Origin: a virus
DNA length: 21,575 nt
Reading direction: 5' to 3' (one strand)
Virus record (IMG/VR): IMGVR_UViG_3300002835_001275
Coordinates: 1-21,575 of that record
Position 1 is the stretch's first letter. Each line of letters begins with the position of its first letter. Made by a program: the position numbers and the translations under genes. The notes under the pieces were generated by a model. It was not told the origin of the DNA. It worked only from the letters and a program-made list of their open reading frames with translations, and ran no database searches. Shown here in pieces: positions 5,310-21,575 of this stretch.

Positions 5310-5326
5310 TTTAGGAGTTTTTTAAT

Positions 5327-5680
5327 ATGGCTTTATCTCGATCACAGATCCTTTCGAAAAAAGACAACCTGCCTAGGCAGGAAGTTTTAGTTCCAGAATG
5401 GGAAGGATCTGTATGGGTCAGAAGTCTGACAGTAGGTGAACGAGATTCAATAGATAACGAATTCAACGCAGCACGAGTCAAGAATAAAACCCCTGACAAC
5501 CTTAGAGCAAGGATGCTTATTAAAGGGTGCTGCGATGAAAAGGGAAAAGCATTATTTACAGAAGCGGATATCGCTGAAGTAAATGTGTTACCTGCCACCA
5601 TCCTTGAAAAAATCTTTGATGCGATTCTTAAAATAAATCGTATTGGAGCAGGGGCAGTAGAGGATGCGGAAAAAAACTAA
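5327..5680 (+). CDS. Tail assembly chaperone, short form (G)
   Basis: A 117-residue tail assembly chaperone, the counterpart of lambda gpG. It starts at ATG 5327 after an AGGAG ribosome-binding site. The sequence has the family's N-terminal helix, a strand pair (VLVPEWEGSVWVRSLTVGERDSI) that resembles other chaperone G proteins, and a long C-terminal helix. It ends in an acidic EDAEKN where the TAA follows directly after A AAA AAC. It should bind and keep the tape measure soluble until tube assembly. A fraction of ribosomes is predicted to slip into the T frame at this site. Confidence 0.85.
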   Translation: MALSRSQILSKKDNLPRQEVLVPEWEGSVWVRSLTVGERDSIDNEFNAARVKNKTPDNLRARMLIKGCCDEKGKALFTEADIAEVNVLPATILEKIFDAILKINRIGAGAVEDAEKN

Positions 5681-6000: not shown

Positions 6001-6002
6001 AC

Positions 6003-8630
6003 ATGGCAGATACATCCTTAGGACGAGCCAGTCTATCCGTTACAGCAGACCTATCAGGCTTCACATCTTCCTTAGATACAGCATCCACAAAAGTTCAAGC
6101 CTTTGGTAGTTCCAGTGTAGCTGCAGCTATGGATGCCAATAAGATAACCACCGCAACCGAAAAGGTAACTCTATCTCTAGAGCAACTTCAGCAGGCAGCA
6201 GTAACTGGTGCAGCAAACCAGATGAGCCTAAAGTCTAAGACCGATCTAGCATCCAAGGCTTTGGAATTGCAAGCCCGACAAATGAACATTGATTCAGGTG
6301 CAACTAAAAAGCTTCATGATGAAATGGTCAGGTTGGAGCAGATCGAACAGAAATTAATTGCTGCAGAGAATAAGGCTAGGGGAATTCCCCCACCCCTACC
6401 GATCAAGCCACCACCGATTCCAGAGAATAAAAACACCGCAGCATTTGTATTGAATGCTAAGAAGATGTCTGCAGAAACGGACATCCTCAATAAGAAACTG
6501 GATCAACAAGCTAGGCAGATGATGATTGATAGTGGTGCTGCTGCTAAGTTAGCACAGGAACTATCCGCATTAGAGAAGGCTGAAAAGAAACTGGCAGATG
6601 CAGAACAGAAAATCAATGCTGCAGCGGGTAGGGGTCAGACAGCCAAGGAAAAGGTTAAGTCACCCACCAAGGTTGCAGCATCAAGTGGTGGCATGAAAAT
6701 TACGGACATGATGGGTATAGGTTTCTTCACCGCAGTGTTTGACCGTATGTTCACCAGTGTAGGTAATGTCATTGGCGCAGTTGCAAAACTAGGGACCGAC
6801 ATTATTGATGCGGGTGCTAAATTTCAGCAAGTCGATATTCGGTTAGGTGCCTTAACAGGTGTATCAGGCATGGCCCAAGGTCTTCAAGATATCATGAAGT
6901 CTGGCCCCAGTGCGAGCTTTGACACCTTGGCCGAACATGCCACCCGATTAGCTGCCCTAAAGTTTGATGCAAATTCTGTGCAGGTGTTAACTGGTCAATT
7001 TAACAAGCTTGGCATAGCCCTTGGAAATCCTGAAAAGATCATGGCTTTGATTGTGGATAAGATTGGCGATATGGCCAGTGAAGGGTTTGCCACCACTGCA
7101 GCCTTGGACAAGTTAGCTGAAGAGGGTGTGAACGCTTACAGTGTACTAGCTATGAGGATGCAGATTTCAGAGGCAGAAGCCAAAGCTGCTGTAGCTGCTG
7201 GAACTGTGTCAGTGGCTGAAGCATCATCAGCAATTTCTATGCTAGCCAATGATCCCAAGCACATTGAAGGATTTGCAAAAACAGCGAATAGCTTTTATGG
7301 TATTTGGCAGACTGCCAGCAATAACATCCTAGCTTTGTTCCAAAAGATCGGTGGTTACTTTGTTGAAGGGTTTAGCCTGGTTAAACTTTCAGACACGATC
7401 ACCCAAACCTTTAAAAGCATTGGGAATAAACTGGATGAATTAAAACCCTACTTTTTAAAGTTTGGGGTATTCGTTTCAAGTGTGTTTAAGATCATTGGAA
7501 ATTCGGTAGAGGATTTCTTTAAGGGCTGGACTGGGAAAGCGGAAGAATTTAATGTTGAAGATATTATGAAAAGCGCAAAGATGGCTGCAATAGACTTTGG
7601 TTCCTCCCTTTTAGAAACAGTTAAACTAGTTATAATTGGACTCACTGAAATTATTAACAGCTTTAATGAGCTGATTGATACTATTAAAAACTTTAAGCCT
7701 AGGGTGGTTGATGCGGTTATAAAATTCAAGCCATTGGGCAAAGATACGCCTGGCCTTGATCTTCTTGAAAAAAACAACCCTGTAATTCACCAACCATTCC
7801 CACCATTTGTACCTATCAAAACTGATAAGACAGAAAAGTTTTTCAATGATCAGATTAACAAGCTAGATATTTTAAAAAGAGAGGCAGCAAAGCCCCTTGA
7901 ATTTGGACCACCTAAGAATTTGATGGATCCAAATCAAATGGAAAAGCCTAAAAGCGAGCTAAGGGAACTAATTGATTTTTACAAGGCTAATGTTAACGCA
8001 ATTCAGAATAATGTGGGTGCAAAAGAATGGAGTGAAAAGGTTGGCCGATTAAGGAACTTCAACCAAGAGATTACAAAAATATTTGATGACAATCGAGATA
8101 AAAAAAGCTCGGATAAATTCCCTTTACTAGATAATGTTCTGGAGAAGCTGGAACCAAAAGTCAAAAATTTAAATGATGCTTTTAAGGATCTAAATGATGA
8201 GATCAATAGGAAGGAACCACCCAAGTGGGAAAAGTTCTTAGCAGATAACCTGACACCATTACAGATCTATCAGAATGAATTAAAGAAACTTAGCGCACTT
8301 CTAGACCCAACACAAGGGCCAAACGGACTTAAAGCCTTTGCAATCGGTTCTGCTGCAGCTATCAAGAAGCTCAAAGATGCCACTGGCCTAGGCGGTCCTC
8401 AGCAATTTGCATCCGCAGTTCAAGCTGGATCGGCTGCAGAATTCCAAGTTAAAGTCGATGAGATGGGCAAAGGTAAAAATGTTCAAGAGGAAATCAGGCA
8501 ACTGATGGAAGCTGCTGCAGAGGTAGAAGCCCAACAGTTAGAAGCTGCCAGAGAAATTGCAGAAGCTATTAAGAATCTACCCGCAGCAATGCCAAGACCT
8601 CAACAAATTGCAGTGGCCCTTAACCCTTAG
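6003..8630 (+). CDS. Tape measure protein
   Basis: An 875-residue tail tape measure protein, which sets tail length and is ejected with the DNA. The N-terminal third is helical with coiled-coil character and holds a duplicated segment beginning QARQM near residues 90 and 169. A Pro-rich spacer (IPPPLPIKPPPIP) lies between the two copies. Residues about 230-450 form the conserved tape measure core, with QQVDIRLGALTG, a DTLAEHATRLAALKF segment, EKIMALIVDKIGDMA, and FYGIWQTASNNILALFQKIG, the last a typical semi-hydrophobic stretch. The C-terminal part is charged and helical. The length predicts a tail of about 130 nm. The start is two bases after the chaperone stop. Position and size confirm the call. 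Confidence 0.93.
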   Translation: MADTSLGRASLSVTADLSGFTSSLDTASTKVQAFGSSSVAAAMDANKITTATEKVTLSLEQLQQAAVTGAANQMSLKSKTDLASKALELQARQMNIDSGATKKLHDEMVRLEQIEQKLIAAENKARGIPPPLPIKPPPIPENKNTAAFVLNAKKMSAETDILNKKLDQQARQMMIDSGAAAKLAQELSALEKAEKKLADAEQKINAAAGRGQTAKEKVKSPTKVAASSGGMKITDMMGIGFFTAVFDRMFTSVGNVIGAVAKLGTDIIDAGAKFQQVDIRLGALTGVSGMAQGLQDIMKSGPSASFDTLAEHATRLAALKFDANSVQVLTGQFNKLGIALGNPEKIMALIVDKIGDMASEGFATTAALDKLAEEGVNAYSVLAMRMQISEAEAKAAVAAGTVSVAEASSAISMLANDPKHIEGFAKTANSFYGIWQTASNNILALFQKIGGYFVEGFSLVKLSDTITQTFKSIGNKLDELKPYFLKFGVFVSSVFKIIGNSVEDFFKGWTGKAEEFNVEDIMKSAKMAAIDFGSSLLETVKLVIIGLTEIINSFNELIDTIKNFKPRVVDAVIKFKPLGKDTPGLDLLEKNNPVIHQPFPPFVPIKTDKTEKFFNDQINKLDILKREAAKPLEFGPPKNLMDPNQMEKPKSELRELIDFYKANVNAIQNNVGAKEWSEKVGRLRNFNQEITKIFDDNRDKKSSDKFPLLDNVLEKLEPKVKNLNDAFKDLNDEINRKEPPKWEKFLADNLTPLQIYQNELKKLSALLDPTQGPNGLKAFAIGSAAAIKKLKDATGLGGPQQFASAVQAGSAAEFQVKVDEMGKGKNVQEEIRQLMEAAAEVEAQQLEAAREIAEAIKNLPAAMPRPQQIAVALNP

Positions 8631-8638
8631 GAATCATC

Positions 8639-9619
8639 ATGGCGATTGATCTATTTGAAGAGCTATGGCAGGAGCGTAAAGGAACTCTGGATAAGAGCTA
8701 CCAGAACACTTTTTCGCGATCCTTCATTGTTCATACTAATACTTTAGAGCAAACGGATATTAACATTTATGATGCCATTTATGGGCATCCTAACTGCCCA
8801 CAAATTGGGGATCTTTTCCCTGGGGATGATGACAGCTATGCGCAAAATGTAAACATCACACCCGAACAGGATGACCCGCAAACTTGGAAAGTCACGATTG
8901 AGTATTCGTCCAACCCTGATGCAGCATCGAGCAACTCAGGTGGTTCTGGCGGTGGCAGCACTCCACCACCCCAAGTGGAAACCCAGCAGACTGGTCAGAA
9001 ACCTGCAGACAGGGAAGCCAACCCCACCCTAAGACCACCTGATTTCAAGGTAAACTTTGTTTCATTCCCTTACATAGTGCCGAACATCAACAACAGTGCA
9101 GGTGATCCTTTTGTACCACCAATTACAGTGGAAAAGTTTAGGCCAGTGTTTAGTATCGGATGCAATGTTAAGAGCATCAACAGCTACACCCTAGCCACCT
9201 ACATAGGCAAAGTAAATTCCACCAGTGTGACTTTCACCACAGGCACTGGGTGTGTGTTATCGATCCCAGCAAAGACTGGGAAGATTAAGAATATCAACAC
9301 CGAACTATTGCTAGAAGGTAGCTTCCAATATTGGCGATTAACTTACGAAATCGAGATCAACACCAGCATAAGCCCAATTGATAACACCACTGTGATTGGC
9401 TGGGATATGTACATACTTGATATGGGCTATAGGTTTAGGAAAGATGATGGGGAGATGGCTCCAATTTTTGAGGGTGGTCAAAAAGTTACCACACCAGTAA
9501 AGCTTAATGGATTTGGTAAGAAAGCTAATGTAGGTTCTAGCAGTTATCGTCAGTTTACATCATCTGAAATCTACGGCACTGTTAACTTTGCAACTCTCCC
9601 AGGACTAGGATTTTTCTAA
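8639..9619 (+). CDS. Unrecognised tail protein after the tape measure
   Basis: A 326-residue protein in the position of a distal tail or baseplate component. Three parts are visible. First, an N-terminal alpha/beta domain, where MAIDLFEELWQ leads to SFIVHTNTLEQTDINIYDA, a 'P.IGDLFPGDD' loop and a TWKVTIEYSS strand (residues 1 to about 95). Second, a Gly/Ser/Pro linker (about 96-130, SGGSGGGSTPPPQ). Third, a C-terminal beta-rich domain (about 135-320) with repeated strand-forming blocks, ending FATLPGLGFF. I recall similar first domains in unannotated proteins of planctomycete prophages, without assigned function. Good ribosome-binding site (TAGGA). I do not assign a function beyond 'tail'. 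Confidence 0.75.
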   Translation: MAIDLFEELWQERKGTLDKSYQNTFSRSFIVHTNTLEQTDINIYDAIYGHPNCPQIGDLFPGDDDSYAQNVNITPEQDDPQTWKVTIEYSSNPDAASSNSGGSGGGSTPPPQVETQQTGQKPADREANPTLRPPDFKVNFVSFPYIVPNINNSAGDPFVPPITVEKFRPVFSIGCNVKSINSYTLATYIGKVNSTSVTFTTGTGCVLSIPAKTGKIKNINTELLLEGSFQYWRLTYEIEINTSISPIDNTTVIGWDMYILDMGYRFRKDDGEMAPIFEGGQKVTTPVKLNGFGKKANVGSSSYRQFTSSEIYGTVNFATLPGLGFF

Positions 9620-9620
9620 C

Positions 9621-10514
9621 ATGCCTGATCCAGTAGCATTTGAATTTGAGACAGCCAAACAGCTCCTAAGACTTTTAAAAAAGTCCAAGGATGGCACCTT
9701 TAATTCGGAAATCGATGATACTATTCCACTCGATCACACCCCTGCTTTTGTGTGGGCTTATGTGCCTGGCACAGTCACTTGCACACTATCTGGGAATCCA
9801 CCAGCTTGGCTTATACCAGGGGCAACGACATGCTACCCACTAAATATTGGGGTAGATAGATTTGGTTATCTACAGTGGGGGAAATCTGATACTGCAGGAG
9901 AGATCACTGGTGGCATCGCTTGCACCACTCTCACACCTAGAATGGGGTCAGAATCAGCCCCATCTGTTTTTGGTGGTTTTTATCTAGGTATTATTTTTGG
10001 GTATGACTCTTTAGAAAAACCAAGGGTCATGATAGGCAAGCCAACCAATCCAAATGTGTCCCCCAGTGGAAATGCGGTTATAGAAGTAGTCAGTGATGTG
10101 ATATGTACCCCAACAGGAATTGAGGTGCAAACTATTCAGTTATCTGGAAAAGACTACGATACCGCAGTGATAAGGCAGTTCCTTGGGCTATCGGATGTGA
10201 TACCTGTTTCCTATTCAGGGCAGCAAAACAGAGTGGTTAAGGTTAATTCTTCTGCCACTGGTTTGGAGTTTGGACTTAATGCAGGAACCTTAGAAGCCGA
10301 CATATCAACGATCAAGGCAGACATTGTAACGCTTAAAGCTAATGTCGTTACTATTAATTCAAGATTAACAGGCATAGATGCAGCAGTAGCATCAGTGGTT
10401 ACTTTATCTAATTCACTTGCTACAAGGGTTACTGCCATTGAGAGCAATGTTACTACATTGCAGGCAAATGCTACCGACTTTGAATCCAGGCTAGCAGCAC
10501 TGGAGAACCCATAA
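9621..10514 (+). CDS. Tail protein with C-terminal coiled coil (possible baseplate or fibre-base protein)
   Basis: A 297-residue protein in two parts. Residues 1 to about 205 are beta-rich, with Trp/Gly/Pro-rich strands (PAFVWAYVPGTVTCTLSG, FGYLQWGKSD) and four Cys in the first 110 residues. Residues about 222-297 form a continuous heptad repeat (ISTIKADIVTLKANVVTINSRL and on to FESRLAALENP), a strong signal for a trimeric coiled coil. A globular head followed by a trimeric rod is common in tail-tip and fibre-attachment proteins, but no family is recognised. It lies one base after the previous stop and overlaps the next gene by one base. Confidence 0.75.
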   Translation: MPDPVAFEFETAKQLLRLLKKSKDGTFNSEIDDTIPLDHTPAFVWAYVPGTVTCTLSGNPPAWLIPGATTCYPLNIGVDRFGYLQWGKSDTAGEITGGIACTTLTPRMGSESAPSVFGGFYLGIIFGYDSLEKPRVMIGKPTNPNVSPSGNAVIEVVSDVICTPTGIEVQTIQLSGKDYDTAVIRQFLGLSDVIPVSYSGQQNRVVKVNSSATGLEFGLNAGTLEADISTIKADIVTLKANVVTINSRLTGIDAAVASVVTLSNSLATRVTAIESNVTTLQANATDFESRLAALENP

Positions 10515-12412
10515 TGGAATTTGGGACCAACATTGACAGGCAGTCAAGGGTGATTATTTTACGAGCTTACATTAACCCTACCACAGATATAATCGATTGG
10601 GGATCTGGCCAGAATGTTCCAGTCCGACTTCCTGAATACGAGCTGTTTACCTATCGTGTATTTTTAAAGGGCAATCTTCCAATTGGTTTAGAGAATAATA
10701 GGATCTATTATCTTCAGAGGCAATTAGGGGGATCAAACCCAAACCTTCTTTTTTTGTCTACAGACGATATTGATAACAATAACCCATTTGATTTTACCAC
10801 TGAGAATCTAGAAGGATTTGTCACTTGTGAGGCATGGACAGTTGATTACAAGTACACCACCTTTCCCTGCATAGAAAGAGCAGCTACGAATGTTCAGGAT
10901 ATGTTCTGTTGTCCACCAAAAGCAGAATTAAACACCAACATCCCAGAGTTTTTAACCTTGGATACTGGCTCAGAAGATGATTCAGGTGATTATTATTTAG
11001 CAACTTACAAGGTTATGAACTCGGTACCTAATTGGGTACCACCCTTGGGGTATCAACCAGCAAACCTTGCCTACAAAAGCAGGAACAAACCCTATGTTCC
11101 AATCACAAGGATGCAGACCAACATTTATGCTGGCCCTAGTCGTTACGAAACTGTCAACCAAATGTATACCATTGCTTGGGAAATGATGACAGATCATCAG
11201 GTTGTTAATGGTTTAGCGACTGGGAATATACGGATAAAGGTTCTATGCACTGTTTGGGCTTTAACTCCAGGGAATATGCCAGCGGATGGAGGAGGTTTGA
11301 AAACACTTCAGGAATATTATTCTGAATGGGTTCATAAAGATGAATTTGATTATGATGGAACCTGCACGATATTGAATAATATGGACGCTGATTATTTTGG
11401 ACCTAGCGTTATGGGTTATTATGAAACTCCAGCAGGTCTACCGATTCCGCATACGGTTTCAGTTTCTAGAAGTGCTGCAAATGTTACCATGCCTAGCACT
11501 CTCTACCTTAATATGCCCGATGCAGTTTTTGTAACTCCTGAAGGAAACATACCACTGGGCAACATAGCAGAAGCCTTGAATTACGATTCAATCCTTGGGG
11601 CTTATTATTCTGACATAAAAGATCATTACTTAATCAAAGGTCGATACTACATACCCTTTAATTTTTACCCAGTAGCAGCAGCATACAACCCATTTAATCC
11701 AAATCGAATGGGTATAGGTTTTGGGCAGGGAGGTATTAATTCTCAAATTTCCGAGAGTGGCGATGGGCTATTTTATGACACCATAACAAACCAAGGTCCA
11801 TACTATTTTGGCGCACGCACCCCACCACTTTATTTTACAAATGACATTGAAGAAAGAGGCCCATTTGTTGGCAGTTTATCTGAAGCAGGGGCTGGTTTTG
11901 GGGGGATATTCTCAGGGCTAGCACACGGGAAACCATTCATAGATTCTAGAGCTAAAGTAATATTGACTGGGACCGCTGCGGGAAATCCGATTTTCGACCT
12001 TGAAGGCCATGTAATTGGTGTGTCTTTAGTAGGTGGTCGTGGATCTGGTTATATAACTCCACCCACTGTTGTTGTTATCAATTCTAATGCCATTTGTGTT
12101 GCCACTTTAGGGGAAGGTGAATTTGAAGGGCAGGTGATTTCAGTTACTGTTACCAATGCAACGACAAACTGGTATGGCAATAACGCCTATGTTTATTTTA
12201 GCCCACCACCACCACCCTATTTCAGACTGAAAGAGAAAAACAGGAGCATGGATTTATTTTATTCGTCTTATGAATCAGCTATAAAAAGACAACCTGTTGG
12301 CACCAGTTATCAACCATATAATTTTTACAAGAACTACTTTTATTACATTACATCATTCCACCCGGATGCTTACATCACCAGCCTAACATCTATTCCACCA
12401 CCCCCAAGCTAA
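10514..12412 (+). CDS. Large unrecognised tail protein
   Basis: A 632-residue protein, the largest of the tail-tip group, rich in Tyr, Asn, Pro and Gly and probably all beta. Residues about 490-545 contain a GSGYITPPTVVVINSN block, a 'GxGYxxPPxV' type motif often repeated in phage tail proteins. Two short proline runs (SPPPPPYF near 572 and a C-terminal IPPPPS) flank a Tyr/Phe-rich stretch. There is no obvious enzymatic motif, signal peptide or membrane segment. It begins on the stop of the coiled-coil protein (TAATG) and is followed by a small gene. A receptor-contact or tip role is plausible by place only. Confidence 0.72.
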   Translation: MEFGTNIDRQSRVIILRAYINPTTDIIDWGSGQNVPVRLPEYELFTYRVFLKGNLPIGLENNRIYYLQRQLGGSNPNLLFLSTDDIDNNNPFDFTTENLEGFVTCEAWTVDYKYTTFPCIERAATNVQDMFCCPPKAELNTNIPEFLTLDTGSEDDSGDYYLATYKVMNSVPNWVPPLGYQPANLAYKSRNKPYVPITRMQTNIYAGPSRYETVNQMYTIAWEMMTDHQVVNGLATGNIRIKVLCTVWALTPGNMPADGGGLKTLQEYYSEWVHKDEFDYDGTCTILNNMDADYFGPSVMGYYETPAGLPIPHTVSVSRSAANVTMPSTLYLNMPDAVFVTPEGNIPLGNIAEALNYDSILGAYYSDIKDHYLIKGRYYIPFNFYPVAAAYNPFNPNRMGIGFGQGGINSQISESGDGLFYDTITNQGPYYFGARTPPLYFTNDIEERGPFVGSLSEAGAGFGGIFSGLAHGKPFIDSRAKVILTGTAAGNPIFDLEGHVIGVSLVGGRGSGYITPPTVVVINSNAICVATLGEGEFEGQVISVTVTNATTNWYGNNAYVYFSPPPPPYFRLKEKNRSMDLFYSSYESAIKRQPVGTSYQPYNFYKNYFYYITSFHPDAYITSLTSIPPPPS

Positions 12413-12423
12413 AGGATTCAACC

Positions 12424-12684
12424 ATGGTTATTCACTTTGAATTGCATCCTTCATGGACTCAATCTCTACTGTTTGGAGATGCACTTAAGGCTGGGGTAAG
12501 CTTAGGTAAGGATAATCACTGGCATTACAACGGCATCACCGGACTTTGGGTGGTTTCCAATGGTTTCCTGATTATCGAGATCATTGAAAAGCCCTGTGAT
12601 ATTGAACCCAGTTTAATCAGGGTAACGATCAGGCAGATCCAAGCAAGGTTGATGCAGCCAAGGAAGAAAAAGAATGGGAAGTGA
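12424..12684 (+). CDS. Small unrecognised protein
   Basis: An 86-residue protein with a good start (AAAGGA, then ATG at 12424). It has a central HWHYNGITGLWVVSNGFLIIEII strand-rich segment and a basic tail (RLMQPRKKKNGK). It is not a membrane protein despite the aliphatic strands. No family recognised. It belongs to the tail operon by position, 11 bases after the preceding stop and 90 bases before the next start. That 90-base gap contains no further feature I would defend. Confidence 0.6.
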   Translation: MVIHFELHPSWTQSLLFGDALKAGVSLGKDNHWHYNGITGLWVVSNGFLIIEIIEKPCDIEPSLIRVTIRQIQARLMQPRKKKNGK

Positions 12685-12774
12685 AGTCTTTTTTGTTGGG
12701 TCTGAAGGTAGTAGCACTTTTAGTCAAACTGATTTTGGATGCTCTGTGGTCATTATCTATTCAAGGGGGTCATT

Positions 12775-13122
12775 ATGCCAGCAGGATCATATAGTTTCTA
12801 CGCTGAGCAGGGTGCAACCCTAGAACGAGTTATCACTTATACCGACTCGGCAGAAGCCATCATCAACTTGACTGGCTACACGGCAAAAATGCAGGTCCGC
12901 ACCAGCGCAGAAAGCCCTACTGTAGTCCTAGAACTAACCAGCTCTGCAGGCATCACCATCAATGGAGCTGCTGGCACCCTAACCATTTTGGTGGCAGCTT
13001 CCGTCTTATCAGCAATTGCGCCCTTAATTTATGTTTACGATCTGGAAATCACTGCACCAAGCGGGAAAGTGACGCGACTCATTGAAGGTCGATTCTATGT
13101 CAAGGCAGAGGTAACCCGATGA
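12775..13122 (+). CDS. BppU-like N-terminal domain protein of the fibre cassette
   Basis: A 115-residue protein resembling the compact beta domain that many phages encode ahead of their fibres, often annotated with the BppU N-terminal domain. EQGATLERVITYTDS, then INLTGYTAKMQVRTS, a VLELTSSAGITING turn, and a closing YDLEITAPSGKVTRLIEGRFYV are in family order. I choose ATG 12775 because AAGGGGG stands just before it; an earlier ATG at 12739 lacks one. The role is inferred to be docking or organising receptor-binding proteins. It overlaps the following gene by four bases. Confidence 0.8.
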   Translation: MPAGSYSFYAEQGATLERVITYTDSAEAIINLTGYTAKMQVRTSAESPTVVLELTSSAGITINGAAGTLTILVAASVLSAIAPLIYVYDLEITAPSGKVTRLIEGRFYVKAEVTR

Positions 13123-13460
13123 GCGTAACTGTAAACGAAATCAACAACACCATTCTAGTCAGCCAAGAATCCAATGCTGTGGCTGTCACCCAGTCTGGTG
13201 GACAAGTTGCAGTGGTGGATACTGGGGCAAACCGGATCAGTGTGTTATTCCCCAATAATGCAGTGGAAGTATCCAGCCCTGGATATGTTGGCCCAGTTGG
13301 TCCAGTTGGCCCTCAGGGTCCAAGTGGAACTAGCAATGGACCACTCGATGACCTCACCGATGTTCTCATTGTGAGTGCTGCAGATGGGGATGTTTTACGA
13401 TATTCGCAAGGCTTGGGTGTTTGGACTAATAGCAACCGTCTCGATGGTGGAAACTTTTAA
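13119..13460 (+). CDS. Small fibre-associated protein with collagen-like segment
   Basis: A 113-residue protein starting in the previous stop (ATGA). It has a beta-rich N-terminus (VAVVDTGANRISVLFP), then a short collagen-like Gly-X-Y run, GPVGPVGPQGPSG, at about residues 60-72. A LDDLTDVLIVSAADGDVLRYS block follows, a well-known phage fibre repeat. It ends in LDGGNF. Collagen-like runs and this block are typical of tail fibre parts. The C-terminal motif is shared with the next two proteins. Likely a trimeric linker or spacer of the fibre assembly. Confidence 0.75.
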   Translation: MSVTVNEINNTILVSQESNAVAVTQSGGQVAVVDTGANRISVLFPNNAVEVSSPGYVGPVGPVGPQGPSGTSNGPLDDLTDVLIVSAADGDVLRYSQGLGVWTNSNRLDGGNF

Positions 13461-13471
13461 AGGAATCGATT

Positions 13472-14602
13472 ATGCCAACAACACTAAGAATCAAAAGAAG
13501 GTCAAGTTCCACAGTGGGGGCACCTTCTACTTTGGCCAGTTCGGAACTCGCATTTAATGAAACTTCTGGTGGTAGGGTTTTATATTATGGCCTAGGGGAT
13601 GTCAGTGGCACAGCTTCCAGTGTGATAGCAATAGGTGGCCCTGACTTTGTTTCTAGCACCATACCCAACCTTACTGGGGTAGTCACTTCTGTAGGCACCA
13701 CTACCAGCATTGCTAACGCAGCAATCACAAATGCGATGTTGGCGAATACCGCAGTAGCTAATTTAAGCGGGAGTAACTCTGGAGACAACGCTGTCAACAG
13801 TTTGTACAGCAGTCTTATTTCCGATAAAACGGTAGTCCTCACGGCTGGCAGTGGTGTTACAGTAACAGGAACTTATCCATCCTTCACGATAGCTGCCACC
13901 GGATTAGGTGGAACAGTAACTAGTGTTAGTGTGGTAAGTGCCAATGGCTTTGCAGGAACTGTTTCCACAGCAACATCCACACCAGCCATCACGATAAGCA
14001 CATCCATCACTGGCCTAATCAAAGGCAATGGAACGGCACTGAGTGCTGCTGTTGCTGCCACTGATTATGTTGCACCAAATGGTGCTTTAGGGACACCCTC
14101 ATCTGGTACTTTAACCAACTGCACATTCCCAGTTTTAAACCAAAATACCACAGGTACCGCATCTAATGTAACTGGGGTTGTTGCAGTAGCTAATGGTGGC
14201 ACAGGCCAAACTTCCAGCACTGGTTCGGGTGCAGTGGTACTAGCTAACACCCCTACTCTTATCACTCCTAATATTGGTGCAGCTACTGGAACTAGCTTAG
14301 TGCTTTCAGGAAATCTGACAGTCAATGGAACCACAACCACAATTAGCTCCAGCACTTTAGTTGTTGGGGATAAGAACATAGTTCTGGCCAGTGCGAACAC
14401 TACCGATGCGGGTGCTGATGGGGGTGGGATAACCATCAAAGGTCTCACCGATAAAACCTTTAACTGGATTGATGCCACCGATAGCTGGACATCTTCCGAG
14501 CATATTGATCTAGCCACTGGCAAGGTCTTAAAAATTAATGGAACCACAGTACTTTCCGCTACCGCTCTGAGTGGTGTGGATATAGATGGGGGGAGTTTCT
14601 GA
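13472..14602 (+). CDS. Tail fibre protein with Mtd_N-like start
   Basis: A 376-residue fibre protein. The first 40-50 residues ([27 protein letters not shown]) resemble the phage Mtd N-terminal-type module that attaches the fibre. The remainder consists of low-complexity, Thr/Ser/Gly/Ala-rich beta repeats frequent in metagenomic fibres, such as [38 protein letters not shown] and [14 protein letters not shown]. The C-terminus ends in the shared IDGGSF motif. The start has an AAAGGA site. Late motifs such as [18 protein letters not shown] are also recurrent in phage fibres. Confidence 0.85.
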
Positions 14603-15480
14603 TGCCTAGTTATTGCGTCCAAAATGCTGGTACATCATTTTACAATGGAACCTTTGATTATTATGCAGCGGGTGAATACCGAAAAACAGACAACGCTTCA
14701 TCTAAGATTGTTTATAATGGTGATGGGCTTTGGTATTTTATTAACTTCAGTACGGAAGGATACACTGCGGCTAGTTATAGTGCTACCCCACCTTTAACTG
14801 GATGGAATGTGTCTGGTAATGGTACAGGAACAGCACCAACGCTAACAGAGGGAGCCTGTTTAGTAGATCCTTATTGTGTGGCAAGTGCGGGAACGACAGT
14901 AGCTAATGGCACTTACAGTTTTAATTCTAGTTCATACAACCAATTCATGTCTGGATATTGGCAGCACATCACCCAGCCCCTTTTAAAAATGGGTTACGGC
15001 ATGATGGGGTCTTATGAAATCATTAATGATTCCACTAGACTTTATTACGCATCAACCTTAACTGGCCTTTGGTCCACTGATTATGGTACAGCATCAGCCC
15101 CCACAGTTACCGCAGGGGCTTGTAGTTCCCCAACTCCAACACCGACCCCTACACCAACACCGACTCCTACACCAACGCCAACACCGACTCCTACACCAAC
15201 GCCAACACCAACACCAACACCGACTCCTACACCGACACCTACTCCAACACCGACTCCCAGTCCAAGCCCAACACCCAGCCCAAGTCCAAGCCCAACCGCA
15301 AACATCATTCGACCAAAGCGCAGCACGACAGCTTCTGCAGTTCCAAGTTCTTTGGCGGCCTATGAACTGGCGGTAAATATTTCCGATAAGCGTATATGGG
15401 TTGGGTCTTCTGATGGCACTCCTGTGCTAATGTCCGAACTAAATGATCTACCACCTTCCATCGATGGTGGGACTTTCTAA
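14602..15480 (+). CDS. Modular fibre protein: duplicated domain, Pro-Thr linker, Mtd_N-like module
   Basis: A 292-residue protein. Residues 4-88 and 91-176 are two copies of one domain. Each starts YCV..AGT, has NGT(F/Y) nearby, then LTG.W and ends in AP T.T.GAC, so it is a tandem duplication; two Cys per copy could be paired. Residues 177-232 are an uninterrupted run of 28 Pro-Thr/Pro-Ser dipeptides, likely an extended stiff spacer. Residues 234 to the end repeat the RPKRS/ELAVN module of its neighbours and end IDGGTF. I know the repeated domain only as a recurring unannotated unit. Its role is probably receptor contact, on inference. The start overlaps the prior stop as TGATG. Confidence 0.8.
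15130..15297 (+). repeat. Pro-Thr/Pro-Ser codon repeat tract
   Basis: 168 bases encoding 28 consecutive Pro-Thr or Pro-Ser dipeptides (56 residues). Units are six bases, with longer near-identical runs such as ACACCGACTCCTACACCA. The tract could lengthen or shorten by slippage in in-frame six-base steps, changing the spacer length without changing the frame. The complementary strand is Gly-Val coding and meaningless. Confidence 0.9.
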
Positions 15481-15482
15481 AA

Positions 15483-17189
15483 ATGGCTAACACCATACGA
15501 CCTAAGCGCAGTTACACAGCAACCAATACCCCAACTCTGGTTAGTGGGGAACTAGGTATTAATGCAGCCGATGGGAAGATCTTTTTAGGAAATGCTGCAG
15601 GTAATGCTAATGTTTTGGTTTCTTCCTTGGCTTTCACAGATCACACCGGAACAGTAACTAACTCCCAACTTGATACCACAGCAGTAACACCTGCATCTTA
15701 TACCAATGCAAACATTACTATAAATGCCCAGGGAAGAATCACAGCAGCATCTAGTGGAACTGCTGGTTCTGGCACAGTAACTTCTGTAGGGATGACTGTT
15801 CCAACAGGCTTATCTGTAAGTGGAACACCCATTACAGCTTCAGGAACTTTAGCAGTAACCCTATCTGCTGGTTACTCGATCCCAACCACTAGCGATCAAA
15901 CGAACTGGGGCACAGCTTACACCAACCGGATAACCTCATTAACCACCACTGGTTCATCAGGTGCAGCAACCCTGTCATCTAATACCTTGAACATTCCAAC
16001 CTACACCCTAGCTGGTTTGGGTGGTATCAAACTTACTGACCTGAGTTCAACGGCAACAGGCTTGACCTACACGAATACCACAGGGGTTTTTAGTTTAACA
16101 TCAGGCTATTCAATCCCAACAACTTCAAGCCAAACAAATTGGGATTCTGCATACACTCAAAGATTGCAGTGGGATGGAGGGTCAACCAATCTGGTAGCTG
16201 CCACAGGAAGAACCAGTTTAGGTTTGGTGATTGGTACTAATGTTCAGGCATGGGATGCTGATCTGGATTCCATTGCAGGATTGGCTGGCACATCAGGACT
16301 GCTAAAAAAGACTGCTGCAAATACTTGGACTTTAGATACCTCAACCTACATAACAGCTAATCAATCCATCACATTGTCAGGTGATGTCACAGGGTCTGGT
16401 ACTACTGCGATCACCACCACCTTAGCAACTGTGGGTGTAGCTAAGGGTGGCACAGGACTAACCACCTTAACGGCAAACAATGTCATCCTAGGCAATGGCA
16501 CTTCCACCCCAAGCTTTGTTGCTCCTGGTGCATCTGGCAACCTACTCACGAGCAACGGAACCACTTGGCAAAGCACATCCCCAGCACCGTCATCATCCAT
16601 GCCAACTGGCGCACTCATGCCATATGCAGGCGCAACGGCACCTACTGGGTATCTGTTATGCGATGGCAGTAGCGTCAGTAGTTCAAGTTATTTAGCCCTT
16701 CATGCAGTGATATCTAACACCTATGGTGGATCTGCTTACACTGGAGCAGCAGGGTTAAGTTTTAACTTGCCAGATCTCAGGGGCAGGCTACCTATGGGTG
16801 CTGGTACTGGTACTGGGCAGAACGCATCAGGCACTGGCGCACCATCTGGTACGGCACAAACAGCTAGGACTAGGGGCCAATGGCTAGGGGAAGAAACACA
16901 TCTTTTAAGCATTTCAGAAATGCCAAGCCATAACCACACAGCAAACACAGGAAGTGCTGGAAGTCACTTTCATAGTTTTGGCAGACCAGCTTTGTCTTAT
17001 AATGCTCCAAATGGAAATATTAGCGTATCAACACCAGGCGGTACCTTACACAGATTTTCTGATGGTGATGGAGTGAACGACACAGACACAGCATCAAACC
17101 ACCAACACACGATCACAGCAGAAGGTGGCGGGTCTAGACATAGTGTGGTACCTCCTGTTGTGGTCTTAAATTACATCATTAAAACTTAG
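15483..17189 (+). CDS. Tail fibre with Mtd_N-like start and tail-collar tip
   Basis: A 568-residue fibre. Residues 4-48 hold the RPKRS ... ELGINAADGKIFLG module shared with the two preceding proteins. Residues about 50-370 are Thr/Ser/Gly repeats, including the duplicated GYSIPTT(S)xQTNW near 130 and 208, and the LSGDVTGSGTTAITTTLA block at 298-315. Residues about 374-440 form a phage tail collar domain (PTGALMPYAGATAPTGYLLCDG, FNLPDLRGRLPMG). The C-terminal tip carries three H-x-H pairs at 483/485, 495/497 and 540/542; in T4 gp37 comparable motifs coordinate iron. It should be the receptor-binding fibre. The ribosome-binding site is weak, so coupling to the previous gene is likely. Confidence 0.9.
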   Translation: MANTIRPKRSYTATNTPTLVSGELGINAADGKIFLGNAAGNANVLVSSLAFTDHTGTVTNSQLDTTAVTPASYTNANITINAQGRITAASSGTAGSGTVTSVGMTVPTGLSVSGTPITASGTLAVTLSAGYSIPTTSDQTNWGTAYTNRITSLTTTGSSGAATLSSNTLNIPTYTLAGLGGIKLTDLSSTATGLTYTNTTGVFSLTSGYSIPTTSSQTNWDSAYTQRLQWDGGSTNLVAATGRTSLGLVIGTNVQAWDADLDSIAGLAGTSGLLKKTAANTWTLDTSTYITANQSITLSGDVTGSGTTAITTTLATVGVAKGGTGLTTLTANNVILGNGTSTPSFVAPGASGNLLTSNGTTWQSTSPAPSSSMPTGALMPYAGATAPTGYLLCDGSSVSSSSYLALHAVISNTYGGSAYTGAAGLSFNLPDLRGRLPMGAGTGTGQNASGTGAPSGTAQTARTRGQWLGEETHLLSISEMPSHNHTANTGSAGSHFHSFGRPALSYNAPNGNISVSTPGGTLHRFSDGDGVNDTDTASNHQHTITAEGGGSRHSVVPPVVVLNYIIKT

Positions 17190-17197: not shown

Positions 17198-17383
17198 ATG
17201 GAAATACTTATCAGCGAGACCACAACCAGTGAAAACATCACAGGCTTTAATGTGACCTTCATCAATCGCAACAAAAAGAAAACGATTAATGATGCAGACT
17301 TTTTTCCAGAAGGCTCGGAAGTAGATGTGAAAATTAAACAGCTTAAGAAATTACTGAAACAATACTTTGATGCACAGGTGTAA
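17198..17383 (+). CDS. Small unrecognised protein
   Basis: A 61-residue protein with a TAGGA site eight bases before ATG 17198. The first half is polar with strand-like stretches (ITGFNVTFINRNKKKTIND); the second half is a predicted helix (VDVKIKQLKKLLKQYFDAQ). It has no signal peptide or membrane segment. It lies 8 bases after the fibre gene and 3 bases before the secreted protein gene, so it is part of the same transcript. No function assigned. Confidence 0.6.
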   Translation: MEILISETTTSENITGFNVTFINRNKKKTINDADFFPEGSEVDVKIKQLKKLLKQYFDAQV

Positions 17384-17386
17384 ACC

Positions 17387-18049
17387 ATGAACCTAATACC
17401 CATTCTATTCTTAGCCCTTGGCCAGCAGGTTACCCTGCCTCAGGAAATCCATGGGCAACCAGGGCAATTCATTTCTATACCCAGTGTGACCGATTGCAAG
17501 TCAGTTCAATGGGTGGTCCTTGATGCAGGGCTAAACCTGTTCCCAGTGGAGCTGCTCAGGGATACTACCACCGCAGTAGTATCTGCAAATGCTCCTGGTA
17601 AATACAGAGTCCTAGCCTATGCAGCCAAAGGAGATCAGGCATCCAAACCTGCACTAACCACAGTCTGCATTGGTAATCCACCCGAACCCATACCAGCACC
17701 GGATGAAACCACCTCCAAATTAACCCGAGAATTGAAATCACTTTATGTGTCATTGGGTGAGGATGACAAGCAGGGAAAGGTTACCAAACTTGCTGGGCTT
17801 TATGCCAGCTTTGCAACCACTGTCAAGGGTGAGGAAGTCCAGACCGCAGGAGAGTTATTAGGGTTATGTAAAGAGGCAGTGGCAAGGGTGCTTAGCCCTT
17901 CAGATTTGCGGGAAATTAGAGTCCGGATACAATCAGAGTTGTCAGGTTTCCCGACTGATCCAGATGAAAAGCTGGATGACAAAATAAAAAAAATGATAAG
18001 TGGGAAATTTATGGAAATATCTAAAGCCCTAGAGCGAATAACTAAATGA
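17387..18049 (+). CDS. Secreted protein coupled to the papain-like peptidase
   Basis: A 220-residue protein. It begins MNLIPILFLALGQQV, a short hydrophobic run that could be a signal peptide, with cleavage possible around residues 12-16. Residues about 20-95 look like a beta-sandwich (GQPGQFISIPSVTDCKSVQWVV and later VVSANAPGKYRVLAYAAKGD, an Ig/PKD-like pattern). A Pro-rich hinge (PPEPIPAPDE) follows, then a helical, charged C-terminal half (about 105-220). Its stop overlaps the peptidase start as ATGA, so the two are translated together. I suggest it partners the peptidase (delivery, anchoring or inhibition) but the sequence gives no direct proof. Confidence 0.7.
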   Translation: MNLIPILFLALGQQVTLPQEIHGQPGQFISIPSVTDCKSVQWVVLDAGLNLFPVELLRDTTTAVVSANAPGKYRVLAYAAKGDQASKPALTTVCIGNPPEPIPAPDETTSKLTRELKSLYVSLGEDDKQGKVTKLAGLYASFATTVKGEEVQTAGELLGLCKEAVARVLSPSDLREIRVRIQSELSGFPTDPDEKLDDKIKKMISGKFMEISKALERITK

Positions 18050-18960
18050 GCGGACCATCCAATCTAGGATGGATTCCACCCAGTGAACGCACCTCAGGAC
18101 AGATCGAGCTGGACGCACAAATCCAATCTCGATGGGAACCCTTCAAGATTAGGGGCAAATACAAAGAACCCACCTCAGCCCTTCTTTATCGATTTATTCA
18201 TGATCATAAACCCTTCTACCAACAAACCGGATCATGTGTAGGCAATGGCCTAGGGATGGCCCTATGGTGCCTTGAATCCATAGAGGTTAACCAACTCGGC
18301 CAGCTTGAAAATCCTGTCTGCCCATTTTGGTTATTGCCCTACGGAAAATCGCGCGAACTTGCTGGCATGAGTGGTAGAGGTGAAGGAAGTTTCGGATCTG
18401 CTGCCATAGAAGCCCTCATGAAATTTGGCACCCTGCCATCCGATGATCCATCAGTTCCCAAACCCAAACTGGTGGATGGGGCATGGACATGGGGGGAAGC
18501 TGCGGAAATGCAGTGGTCAGATGGCGCAGCGATCAAACCTGCATTCCTATTGCAGTCTAAAAAATACACCCTGCAAACATCCGCACGAATTAAGTCATGG
18601 CAAGAAGCCAAGGCAGCTTTGATCAATGGATACCCTTTAACCTGTGCCAGCAACTGGGGTGGGGAAATGAATCCACCGATTAAAGGAACACCAGCAGTCA
18701 TCGTAAATAGAAGGGTGACCCAGTGGGGCCATCAAATGTGTGTCTTAGCATGGGTCGATCATCCCGAACTTAAAGACATTTTCTGGGTCCAAAATTCATG
18801 GGGTGTCTGCCATGGGAAAAGCCCAGGTAATTACCATGAACCAGAAGGTGGTTTTTGGATTCAGGCTAAGGACATGGATTGGATTTGCAAGGATGGGGAA
18901 GTGTTTTCCCTATCTAATTTTGAGGGTTTCCCAGTACAGAAACTCGATTGGTTAATTTAA
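18046..18960 (+). CDS. Papain-like (C1-type) cysteine peptidase
   Basis: A 304-residue protein with the full papain-type catalytic set. The probable nucleophile is Cys64 in QQTGSCVGNG, with oxyanion-hole Gln59 or Gln60 before it. The His is His229 in TQWGHQMCVLAW and the Asn is Asn250 in FWVQNSWG, the classic NSWG box. After it comes a CxGKSP.Y..EPEGGFWI stretch typical of the fold's end. No signal peptide is visible, so export would need another factor. In this cassette, with a membrane protein and secreted proteins nearby and no muramidase or amidase, it may be the cell-envelope-degrading enzyme. A different role in virion processing or entry is possible. Active-site assignment is strong; the biological role is inferred. 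Confidence 0.85.
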   Translation: MSGPSNLGWIPPSERTSGQIELDAQIQSRWEPFKIRGKYKEPTSALLYRFIHDHKPFYQQTGSCVGNGLGMALWCLESIEVNQLGQLENPVCPFWLLPYGKSRELAGMSGRGEGSFGSAAIEALMKFGTLPSDDPSVPKPKLVDGAWTWGEAAEMQWSDGAAIKPAFLLQSKKYTLQTSARIKSWQEAKAALINGYPLTCASNWGGEMNPPIKGTPAVIVNRRVTQWGHQMCVLAWVDHPELKDIFWVQNSWGVCHGKSPGNYHEPEGGFWIQAKDMDWICKDGEVFSLSNFEGFPVQKLDWLI

Positions 18961-18971
18961 CAGGAGTAAGT

Positions 18972-19157
18972 ATGTCATTTATTTTAGCAACAGTTTTGGC
19001 GATGACCCCAGTAGTTGATTCTTCCTGTGAAGAATGCAAACGCTTTAGCAAATCATGTGTATCTGGTGCAGCCGTTAACAGCTCCACAACCAAAGTAATC
19101 ACCCGTGACCGAATCAGAATCAAAGGCAGATTCAAAAGGGGAGGATGCTGTGTATAG
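18972..19157 (+). CDS. Secreted Cys-rich mini-protein
   Basis: A 61-residue protein starting at ATG 18972 with AGGAG nearby; a TTG at 18948 is in frame but overlaps the peptidase stop. Residues 1 to about 17 (MSFILATVLAMTPVVDS) look like a signal peptide, followed by SSCEECKRFSKSC. The tail is basic (TRDRIRIKGRFKRGGCCV). Five cysteines in 61 residues suggest disulfides or a lipid site: CEEC, C, and a terminal CC. The signal end, VDSSC, is only roughly lipobox-like. It precedes the membrane protein, so an outer-membrane spanin-like role is possible but unproven. Confidence 0.65.
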   Translation: MSFILATVLAMTPVVDSSCEECKRFSKSCVSGAAVNSSTTKVITRDRIRIKGRFKRGGCCV

Positions 19158-19419
19158 CTTTGACTGGCTAACTATCATTGACCGATTAGGGCTACCAGTG
19201 GTGGCCCTTATAGCCATTGGTTATGGCCTCCATAATAGTGCTAGATGGTTAGGAAATAACATCCTAATGCCCATTCATCAAAGGCACTTGATATTCCTTG
19301 ACCGATTAGAGGCAGGGATATCTAGGATCGTAGATACCCAGCATGACCAAAGCAGCCAGATCATTCATCTAACACAAAAAATTTCAGACCACCTAGAAGC
19401 ACAGGAGAAAAAGAACTAA
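19150..19419 (+). CDS. Small single-pass membrane protein, holin-like candidate
   Basis: A protein of 89 residues from GTG 19150, preferred because GGGGAGG lies just upstream; a GTG at 19105 would give 104 residues. One membrane segment, DRLGLPVVALIAIGYGLHN (about residues 11-29), is followed by an amphipathic, partly helical, charged part (RHLIFLDRLEAGISRIVDT to KISDHLEAQEKKN). It fits a holin or a membrane-anchored coiled-coil protein, next to the peptidase cassette. Its start overlaps the Cys-rich gene's end. The single-TM-plus-helix layout could also be an inner-membrane spanin, although charge distribution would favour the C-terminus inside. Confidence 0.65.
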   Translation: MYSFDWLTIIDRLGLPVVALIAIGYGLHNSARWLGNNILMPIHQRHLIFLDRLEAGISRIVDTQHDQSSQIIHLTQKISDHLEAQEKKN

Positions 19420-19748
19420 TGCTATTACCATTCCCACAAGACCTACCCATTGAAGGTGTAGGAATCCTAATCGATAGACTCAGGGGCAAACCTATTCCCT
19501 TGCAAACAGCCCTTAACGCAGCTTGGAATTTGGCAGGTTATGCTGCCACCCAAGTACCCTTGAATCAACCAGTCACAGAAGTAAACCACACCTACCCAGT
19601 ATCAGATGCTGAGGTGATCACCCTCTTAGAAATGATCAAAGGTGAGTATCAAACCCCACTTGAAGGTTCACCCATCAAGTTTGCAGTTATCCCATGGGGT
19701 ATCGTGTTGAAAGTCTTGATTAAATTTCTGATCAATGCTGCATTCTAG
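19419..19748 (+). CDS. Unrecognised protein with hydrophobic C-terminus
   Basis: A 109-residue protein that starts one base inside the preceding stop and ends overlapping the HNH gene by 14 bases. It contains DLPIEGVGILIDRLRGK, AALNAAWNLAGYAATQ-like helices and an acidic middle (VSDAEVITLLEMIKGEY). Its last 16 residues (WGIVLKVLIKFLINAAF) are hydrophobic and could be a tail anchor or amphipathic helix. The position suggests a part in lysis or host-envelope work. No family recognised. Confidence 0.6.
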   Translation: MLLPFPQDLPIEGVGILIDRLRGKPIPLQTALNAAWNLAGYAATQVPLNQPVTEVNHTYPVSDAEVITLLEMIKGEYQTPLEGSPIKFAVIPWGIVLKVLIKFLINAAF

Positions 19749-20061
19749 GCAGCCAGATCGATTATGTTTTGGAATCCCTAGGTCATCTAAATGGCCTGGG
19801 GTCCGCACCCAGTTTCTAAAGTTAAATCCATTCTGCGCTGCATGTGGTAGCACCGAAAAATTAGAGGTGCATCATGTCACCCCATACCATACCCCTGCAG
19901 GTAAATCCCTAGAACTAGACTTTGAAAATCTACTTACCCTCTGCATGGGCAGTGGTCGCTGTCATTTCGTTTGGGGCCACCTGCTAAACTGGCGTTCCCA
20001 TAATAGAGATGTTAGGATGGACTGTGTTAGGTATTATCGAAAAATTGAAACACGACCTTAG
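19735..20061 (+). CDS. HNH endonuclease
   Basis: A 108-residue HNH nuclease with the standard ordered motif. Zinc-type Cys34 and Cys37 lie in CAACGS, His46-His47 in EVHHVTPYH is the first H, and Asn65 in DFENLLTLC is the N. Cys70, Cys76 and His77 (RCHFVWGH) complete the zinc/metal set. HNH enzymes of this small size often assist DNA packaging or cut at cos sites, usually beside terminase, but here it lies just after the lysis cassette. In a circular genome it could still neighbour the terminase at the missing side. The start codon has a weak ribosome-binding site and overlaps the previous gene. Confidence 0.88.
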   Translation: MLHSRQPDRLCFGIPRSSKWPGVRTQFLKLNPFCAACGSTEKLEVHHVTPYHTPAGKSLELDFENLLTLCMGSGRCHFVWGHLLNWRSHNRDVRMDCVRYYRKIETRP

Positions 20062-20085
20062 GATGGATCCGCACTAGGATCCCCT

Positions 20086-20487
20086 ATGCCCAATGTCAGG
20101 ATGATTGAATGTTTATTATGCGGACAAACCAAACCCCACAAATCTAGAAACCTCTGCCTTGCCTGTTATCAGAGGCCAGAATCTGAACCATTAAAGATCG
20201 AAACCAGACACAGAGTGGAAAGAAATACCAACGCATTTATGGAGCCTATTGGGTTACCAGATTCCCCCACTCAGTTTCTACCAGGCTCAGAAGAAAAGAT
20301 GGCAGTGATGGCACAAAGGCTAGAGGATCTCAGGGAAATACATCACCCAGATGATGCGGTGGTAACACCGGATTGTTATTTTAAATCAGATGGAAGCATG
20401 AAAAAAAGAAAAGGTGTGTTATCAAATAATTGGGCACCTAAAAGAATTACCCTTGACATGGATGAGGATGATTCCATAGACTTCTAA
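20086..20487 (+). CDS. Protein with N-terminal zinc-ribbon
   Basis: A 133-residue protein. Cys9-X2-Cys12 and Cys24-X2-Cys27 form a zinc-ribbon (CLLC ... CLAC). The rest is charged and probably flexible, with a Lys/Arg-rich patch (KKRKGVLSNNWAPKR) near 105-120 and an acidic end (LDMDEDDSIDF). Such small ribbons suggest nucleic-acid or protein binding. AGGA sits just before ATG 20086, and an ATG at 20101 is less likely. It stands between the HNH gene and the att site; no specific function assigned. Confidence 0.65.
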   Translation: MPNVRMIECLLCGQTKPHKSRNLCLACYQRPESEPLKIETRHRVERNTNAFMEPIGLPDSPTQFLPGSEEKMAVMAQRLEDLREIHHPDDAVVTPDCYFKSDGSMKKRKGVLSNNWAPKRITLDMDEDDSIDF

Positions 20488-20495
20488 TTATCTAA

Positions 20496-20559
20496 GGATG
20501 GTCACTTTTCTGCGGGATTCGGACCTGCGACCTCTTGGTCCCGAACCAAGCGACCACCC
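20496..20559 (-). other. Probable attP site derived from the 3' half of a tRNA-Pro(CGG)
   Basis: Read on the minus strand, the sequence matches a tRNA from the anticodon arm to the T arm. CTTGG/CCAAG (20546-20550 and 20534-20538) encloses TTCGGGA, with anticodon CGG (Pro). A 5-base variable region and a T arm follow, with the loop TCCGAAT at 20517-20523. There is no D arm or 5' half, so this is not a functional tRNA gene. GACCACCC (20552-20559) and GGATGGTC (20496-20503) form a flanking inverted repeat. It sits 40 bases before the integrase start, as is typical for tRNA-targeted integration. Confidence 0.7.
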
Positions 20560-20598
20560 TAGATGAGGATACTTTTTCCCTTATTAGGATGGACACCT

Positions 20599-21489
20599 AT
20601 GAAAAGCTCAGTAATCATTTCGTTTCGTAATTTTCTGGACTACCTCCAGACCTATCTGGAAAACTCAACCGAGTTAACCACCCACAGATGCGCTCAAGCA
20701 AAATTCCTTGAGTGTGTCAGTTTACCCGATCCCAAGAAATTAGCTGTAACCCATCTGCGGAAGTTCCGAGATCACATGATTGCTCAGGGGCTGGCCCGCA
20801 AGACTATCAGGGAATACCTGCACAGAATTATTAGGTGGGTGGGTTTCTGCTGGGAGCAAGGCAAGGTTTCACAAGCAACCTATCTAGCATGCAAATCCAT
20901 GTGGATGCCAAACCCTAGGCAGGGTAGACCTCCAGTCAGAACTAGACCAGTCACCTGGACTGACATAGAGACTATGCTTCCACATCTTCCAGAGCATCTA
21001 CAGCAACTCATTCAGCTTCACTGGCACACCGCAGCCCGACCCTGTGAGATTGTCCAAATCAATGATAAACAAATCACACGAAACAGTGATCAAATGTGGG
21101 TCTGGGATTTGCAGGACCATAAGAATATGTGGAGAGGTTCACAAAGATTATTATTTTTAAACTCAAAATGTATAAATATTTTAAAACATATAATTCCGGC
21201 CGATTCTGGCTATTACTTCCCTTCCGAGAAAAACAGCTTAGGATTTCTTACACGGCTAACCTACCAGAGACAGATTAAAAAATGTATCATGAGGAAACAT
21301 ACCAAAGGATTAGATGTTTGCCCTGAATGGACTATCAGGGGAATACGAAATGGCAGAGCCAGATCTGTGCAACACGCACACGGTTTGGAAGCTGCGCGCG
21401 TTTTGCTCGGACACACTGACCAACGAATGACCAGTCATTATGCAGGGCTAGCAATACCAAGCCCTGACTTTATCCATCAGCTAGAGTGA
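20599..21489 (+). CDS. int: Tyrosine-type site-specific integrase
   Basis: A tyrosine recombinase of 296 residues from ATG 20599, chosen because AGGATGG lies just upstream; ATG 20563 would add 12 residues. The N-terminal part (about 1-100) is the core-binding, SAM-like helical domain. The catalytic part contains Arg147 (HTAARPCEI), a Lys candidate at 175 (DHKN), R247-x-x-R250 (TIRGIRN), His272 (LLGHTDQ) and the nucleophile Tyr281 (SHYAG). The usual first His of the HxxR box is an Arg here (R247), a tolerated but uncommon replacement. It should recombine attP with a chromosomal tRNA-Pro gene. It lies directly next to the att candidate. Confidence 0.92.
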   Translation: MKSSVIISFRNFLDYLQTYLENSTELTTHRCAQAKFLECVSLPDPKKLAVTHLRKFRDHMIAQGLARKTIREYLHRIIRWVGFCWEQGKVSQATYLACKSMWMPNPRQGRPPVRTRPVTWTDIETMLPHLPEHLQQLIQLHWHTAARPCEIVQINDKQITRNSDQMWVWDLQDHKNMWRGSQRLLFLNSKCINILKHIIPADSGYYFPSEKNSLGFLTRLTYQRQIKKCIMRKHTKGLDVCPEWTIRGIRNGRARSVQHAHGLEAARVLLGHTDQRMTSHYAGLAIPSPDFIHQLE

Positions 21490-21510
21490 CCCTTACCCAG
21501 AAGGATTGTC

Positions 21511-21575
21511 ATGCATCAAGTATTTGTAATTATCAGGATGAGGGGGTTAGTTACCCTACCCCCCCCCCCCCCCCC
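21511..21575 (+). CDS. Start of a further gene, cut by the sequence end
   Basis: AAGGA at 21501-21505 precedes an ATG at 21511, and the frame stays open to the last base. The first residues read MHQVFVIIRMRGLVTLP before the final run of C, which would give only prolines. Whatever the gene encodes lies outside the window. It may be a short-lived open frame rather than a real gene. Confidence 0.3.
   Translation, partial: MHQVFVIIRMRGLVTLPPPPP
21559..21575. repeat. Terminal poly-C run
   Basis: The final 17 bases are all C. A run of this kind at the very end of an assembled piece is most likely a sequencing or library artefact. A G-rich stretch just before it (GGGGG at 21542-21546) could pair with C residues and may have stalled assembly. 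Confidence 0.85.

Follow-up and report, generated by a model that had tools for sequence, protein, structure and literature searches.

Phage lysins that combine a papain-like fold with a Cys-His active site (CHAP) are common (PMC10318531), and PeiW and PeiP, two phage enzymes, achieve lysis of pseudomurein walls through cleavage of a peptide link (PMC4592898). C1A peptidases of the xylellain type have also been acquired by Myoviridae and Siphoviridae according to the accessible text of a further report, in which neither a phage function nor the gene context of these copies is given (PMC10380794). The locus compared here with these systems belongs to an IMG/VR virus record of 21,575 bases, which is referred to as the window. 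The original prediction had recognized in it a possible release cassette built around a papain-like peptidase and had held that such an enzyme, if it is the endolysin, would represent a catalytic type not usual among phage lysins. In view of CHAP (PMC10318531) and of PeiW/PeiP (PMC4592898) this was overstated, although a C1A enzyme in such a role would be new. The results point, tentatively and at slightly less than an even chance, to an envelope-directed protease module, most likely used for host exit, that would replace a peptidoglycan hydrolase.

A second record, G005, was identified as the same phage (99.9–100% identity over 10 kb). Its first 4322 bases corresponded to 17253-21574 of the window at 99.9% and its positions 16897-22664 to 1-5768 at 100%, and the addition of the missing 12.6 kb (G005 4323-16896) to the window yielded a genome of about 34.1 kb. 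Two relatives, G001 and G002, were apparently complete too, at about 33.7 kb. Terminase, portal, RusA, Gp157, tail and integrase functions were assigned to the genes scanned against Pfam. Elsewhere in this phage, a Mom-family protein with a possible function in DNA modification was detected (L040:10354-10812; PF25680, 1.4e-6), a fibre-like gene (window 14602-15480) contained a long tract of Thr-Pro dipeptide repeats, and the run of C that terminates the window (21560-21575) is probably an assembly or sequencing artefact.

The four open reading frames of the predicted cassette were all present, and purifying selection was observed on them in comparison with relatives (NG86 dN/dS). The cassette begins at 17387 but extends to 19748 and does not end at 19419; its genes are tightly coupled and, together with the 61-aa gene at 17198-17383, lie 3' of a fibre gene (15483-17189) (Table 1). 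The HNH endonuclease gene that follows is probably not part of the cassette function. In a scan for promoters and terminators, promoters were no more numerous than in shuffled sequences.

Table 1. Positions, in the window, of the cassette genes, their neighbours and the codons of the catalytic residues.
Feature	Position	Strand	Basis
Small protein, 61 aa, in the interval between fibre gene and cassette	17198..17383	+	Retained by several relatives from groups A and B
Exported two-domain protein, 220 aa	17387..18049	+	AlphaFold2 (pLDDT 86.3); fold search; pairing
C1A papain-like peptidase, 304 aa, without signal peptide	18046..18960	+	AlphaFold2, Foldseek, profile
Catalytic Cys64 codon	18235..18237	+	Invariant column; intein site in relatives
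Catalytic His229 codon (WGHQ motif)	18730..18732	+	Invariant column
Asn250-Ser-Trp-Gly codons (NSWG box)	18793..18804	+	Invariant columns
Small secreted Cys-rich protein, 61 aa	18972..19157	+	dN/dS 0.09-0.40 (NG86); retained by relatives from group A
Single-pass membrane protein, 89 aa from the most likely start (GTG)	19150..19419	+	Weak match to phrog_18771; homologues near peptidase
109-aa protein with hydrophobic C-terminal helix	19419..19748	+	TAATG overlap; homologues; dN/dS
HNH endonuclease, directly 3' of cassette	19735..20061	+	Pfam PF01844, E 3e-6

The start of the peptidase gene overlaps the upstream gene by ATGA, and its product was modelled by AlphaFold2 as a papain fold (pLDDT 91.4, pTM 0.90). 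Xylellain (3ois) was the best PDB match of this model in Foldseek (E 6e-12), followed by procathepsins, and was also matched when the profile of the peptidase family was compared with the PDB (E 9.4e-8). The Pfam scan of the window peptidase itself gave no match, Peptidase_C1 included; this Pfam family was matched by 10 of 44 members of the phage family (E ≤ 0.05, best 2e-5), with the relative L165 above the cut-off. Across 44 divergent sequences, Q59, C64, H229 and the N250-S-W-G box were invariant columns, the Gln being placed five residues before the Cys, versus six in papain. The full papain-type catalytic set claimed for this protein was thus upheld, and its modelled papain fold together with the Gln-Cys-His-Asn set would assign it to the C1A peptidases (MEROPS C1, PF00112). 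The dN/dS values against relatives (0.06-0.19, NG86) indicated strong purifying selection. Proteolytic activity of the enzyme is predicted. A SAR-type N-terminal signal-anchor was absent from the window peptidase and was found only in L165, whose peptidase has an N-terminal membrane anchor that would place the catalytic domain outside the cytoplasm. A search of viral structure models showed that further phages encode proteins of this fold; some of these proteins bear names that would suit host exit (N-acetylmuramidase, peptidoglycan binding-like), which are database names only.

In three relatives (L094, L167, and L168) one LAGLIDADG/Hint intein was located directly before the catalytic Cys (IGD/C...N/CVSFG), and a different intein was found at the identical site in L162. 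Inteins typically sit at conserved positions of important genes, and the position observed agrees with a constrained active site. Since the insertion lies precisely before the catalytic Cys, splicing would be required for the active site to form; that splicing controls the activity of the peptidase is speculation.

The protein encoded by the first gene of the cassette has a short hydrophobic N-terminus that resembles a signal peptide (MNLIPILFLALGQ), and its AlphaFold2 model consists of an Ig-like beta-sandwich, a Pro-rich linker and a five-helix C-terminal domain, which agrees with the secreted two-domain protein described originally. In the fold search, the Ig-like domain matched the C-terminal domain of lambda gpV, AAVR and domains of the S-layer protein SbsC. 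Values of dN/dS against relatives were 0.10-0.16 (NG86), and homologues reached as low as 16% identity. An identity as a chagasin/ICP inhibitor (I42), which is likewise Ig-like, was considered and not supported by the fold search, no chagasin being present among the 50 matches listed.

Relatives of the peptidase were gathered by means of the DNA pattern WGHQ...NSWG and of profile scans, and they comprised four main groups and some outliers. In the last scan 275 IMG/VR stretches encoded such relatives, and those that were read shared 28 to 100% identity. Upstream DNA of 200 bp or more was readable for 58 distinct copies; in 57 of them the gene of the exported protein was the immediate 5' neighbour of the peptidase gene, and in the other (L241) it lay one gene further away. 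Among 42 non-redundant loci compared earlier, profiles revealed the pair in 39 and reading revealed it in L150; the exceptions were L159, truncated by the end of the locus, and L165, with a related anchored protein upstream. The pair was carried by contigs of 34 to 275 kb, including one of 231 kb and one of 275 kb, and the same cassette, for which a search of related phages had been suggested, was recovered from many related and unrelated ones. In the phages of groups A, B, and C, the module follows the tail-fibre genes. In group D, by contrast, it lies among nucleotide-metabolism genes and not behind fibres, and in L079 just upstream of a capsid-like gene, and both of these placements argue against a role in exit. 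Fusions of the partner with the peptidase were not found in the peptidase family, and a mirror-tree test gave no specific signal between the two proteins beyond the co-inheritance of the cassette. No match was obtained by tblastn with the window peptidase and four relatives against GenBank phages (50,697 records), nor with the partner against GenBank phages and against plasmids; a different C1 peptidase (L088) weakly matched one uncultured phage of 595 kb.

Secreted trypsin-like proteases were encoded 1-2 kb 3' of the papain-type peptidase at L076:11971-12885 and at L150:1165-2109 (minus strand), and such proteases are also carried by the phages L031 and L150. Directly 3' of a different C1-family peptidase, a secreted thioredoxin-like protein was encoded in L088 (5896-6381, minus strand), L095, and L083, an assignment tested with Pfam in L088 only. 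The trypsin-like and thioredoxin-like neighbours, as well as the anchor of L165, fit an action on the envelope.

Downstream of the peptidase, the predicted secreted Cys-rich protein was confirmed, with five Cys residues that include a CEEC motif and a C-terminal CC. A spanin lipobox was looked for in this protein and not found, the sequence reading VDSSC. The single-pass membrane protein was likewise present and conserved (dN/dS 0.06-0.10 against relatives, NG86), but its start was revised: GTG 19150 is the most likely start, instead of 19105, because a Shine-Dalgarno-like stretch (GGGGAGG) lies just 5' of it and homologues from other groups have the same start. The protein has one transmembrane-like segment and a weak match to the unnamed phrog_18771 (3e-5). 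By its position it is holin-like, and permeabilization is predicted. The 109-aa protein adjoins it and is conserved there, with a homologue in 27 of the 48 loci examined and dN/dS values of 0.07-0.23 (NG86). In the loci of groups A to C with enough flanking DNA, the genes of both proteins lay no more than about 1.6 kb from the peptidase gene, and in group B the order of the two gene pairs was swapped.

The statement that no recognizable muralytic enzyme lies behind the fibres held, and the search for a standard endolysin was extended to the rest of the genome. No muralytic domain was detected by Pfam in 39 genes of the approximately 34.1-kb genome, a set comprising all but a few small open reading frames and some head or tail genes (e.g., 109-678 and 1475-2827). 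PHROG scans of the cassette and of ten otherwise unannotated genes gave no muralytic match, and NlpC/P60 was not matched in the cassette scans. Seven described endolysin families were then searched for in 19 peptidase-carrying records, which include contigs of 186-221 kb and may be fragments. Amidase_2, Phage_lysozyme, M15_4, SLT, CHAP and M15_3 were absent from all of them, and M23 gave one sub-threshold match, inside a frame of 1397 aa. In the control, six unrelated phage records were scanned with three of the seven families and one record gave a match, a contrast that is suggestive and not statistical. No wall-binding domain was found in the peptidase family. Since the defining muralytic domain was searched for and not found, the peptidase was not classed as an endolysin. 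The original interpretation is supported in part, by the place of the peptidase behind the fibres, next to membrane and exported proteins, and by the lack of a standard endolysin among the genes scanned. That the peptidase is the endolysin, or cuts the wall at all, is conjecture, and no fusion to a muralytic or wall-binding domain was found in its family. Our best guess is that the peptidase functions like an endolysin.

Regarding the host, an attP-like 3' half of tRNA-Pro (CGG anticodon loop) adjoins the integrase gene at 20512-20553 (minus strand) of the window, and attP-like tRNA-Pro halves with TGG or CGG were observed in the relatives. The only genome match was L077 (RFQY01000007.1), a 34-kb phage contig in a Rhodobacteraceae MAG. 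A Rhodobacteraceae host was rejected, as the matching tRNA-Pro of this MAG, which may be incomplete, was present only on the phage contig; the contig is probably misbinned or a contamination. As host clues, the terminase and the replication protein gave best matches that were taxonomically broad. The Planctomycete host put forward originally was not supported, the only genome match being this probably misbinned contig, and Planctomycetes possess peptidoglycan (PMC4432640).

The finding that the protease is nearly always encoded behind an exported partner, in the place expected for the lysis enzyme, suggests that exit is achieved by digestion of envelope proteins. C1A enzymes cleave ordinary peptide bonds, so the stem peptides of peptidoglycan are an unlikely substrate. 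In the mechanism that we propose, in which the protease activity, its timing, the holin function, the substrate and exit as the purpose (versus another envelope step) are all predicted, the exported Ig-like protein would move to the periplasm or the surface and stay there as an anchor or partner, and the signal-less peptidase would build up in the cytoplasm. The membrane protein and the 109-aa hydrophobic partner would open the inner membrane, and the freed peptidase would meet its partner and cut a protein component of the envelope. A more specific version, a widespread two-component exit without peptidoglycan hydrolases in which the Ig-like anchor recruits the holin-released protease to a load-bearing protein layer of the envelope and, in some lineages, intein splicing at the catalytic Cys serves as an activation lock, is possible but doubtful.

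Other roles of the module have to be weighed against exit by proteolysis. The lysis enzyme could be an unrecognized protein encoded elsewhere, with the peptidase module as an accessory of release that, for instance, strips a surface protein layer; spanins play a comparable post-wall role on the outer membrane. Several proteins of the genome match no family, a few were unscanned, and the endolysin test was limited to described families. However, the seven families were absent above the cut-off from the 19 phage records and no second cassette with exported and membrane proteins was seen in the genome, which makes this explanation unlikely. The surface-type Ig-like fold of the exported partner and the own anchor of the L165 peptidase would also suit a protease that remodels the surface in infection or lysogeny (superinfection exclusion, receptor removal) and not in lysis, a function that the integrase and the attP-like site would make possible in a lysogen. 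The lack of an export signal in the window peptidase and the position of the operon directly behind the tail-fibre genes render this decidedly unlikely.

That same position, with the L079 copy that precedes a capsid-like gene, might indicate a virion-associated or morphogenetic protease for assembly or genome entry. The signal peptide of the constant partner is unexpected for a virion protein, though, the head genes are distant in the window, and the pairing is kept on contigs of very different size, from 34 to 275 kb; we consider this role very unlikely. A cytoplasmic protease for host takeover, with a functionally unrelated exported neighbour, would account for a peptidase devoid of signal peptide and for the group D copies amid nucleotide-metabolism genes, but it is hard to reconcile with the near-perfect adjacency and start-stop overlap with the exported protein gene, the membrane-protein neighbours and the anchored L165 copy, and appears highly improbable.

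If the preferred reading, exit through an envelope-directed protease, is true, a large set of metagenomic phages would leave their cells via proteolysis and not by cutting peptidoglycan, hosts with protein-dependent envelope strength would be implied, and the module would be a marker for such phages. Regardless of this reading, the protease and its exported partner form a conserved unit without an assigned function on contigs of up to 275 kb.

Compared with the systems already described, the phage peptidase shares its fold and catalytic set with xylellain from Xylella fastidiosa (3ois), its best structural and profile match, but the phage copies are set apart as a family by their tight association with small membrane proteins and an exported Ig-like partner. 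CHAP and NlpC/P60 endolysins likewise belong to the papain-like superfamily, with Cys-His catalysis and a soluble enzyme beside a membrane protein, whereas the fold of the phage peptidase is C1A with an NSWG box, without a CHAP or NlpC/P60 match. PeiW and PeiP of methanogen phages are lysins that cut the peptide link of an unusual wall, their target being archaeal pseudomurein. Holin-endolysin-spanin cassettes are also compact operons behind fibres that combine a soluble enzyme with a small membrane protein and a small secreted protein; here, the enzyme is a predicted protease, the first gene encodes an exported Ig-like protein, and the spanin lipobox is missing. No description of the paired module or of the cassette was found in the open-access literature. 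Therefore, CHAP lysins and phage xylellain-type C1A peptidases are the known part of this system, and the new part is the paired module and its apparent replacement of the endolysin.
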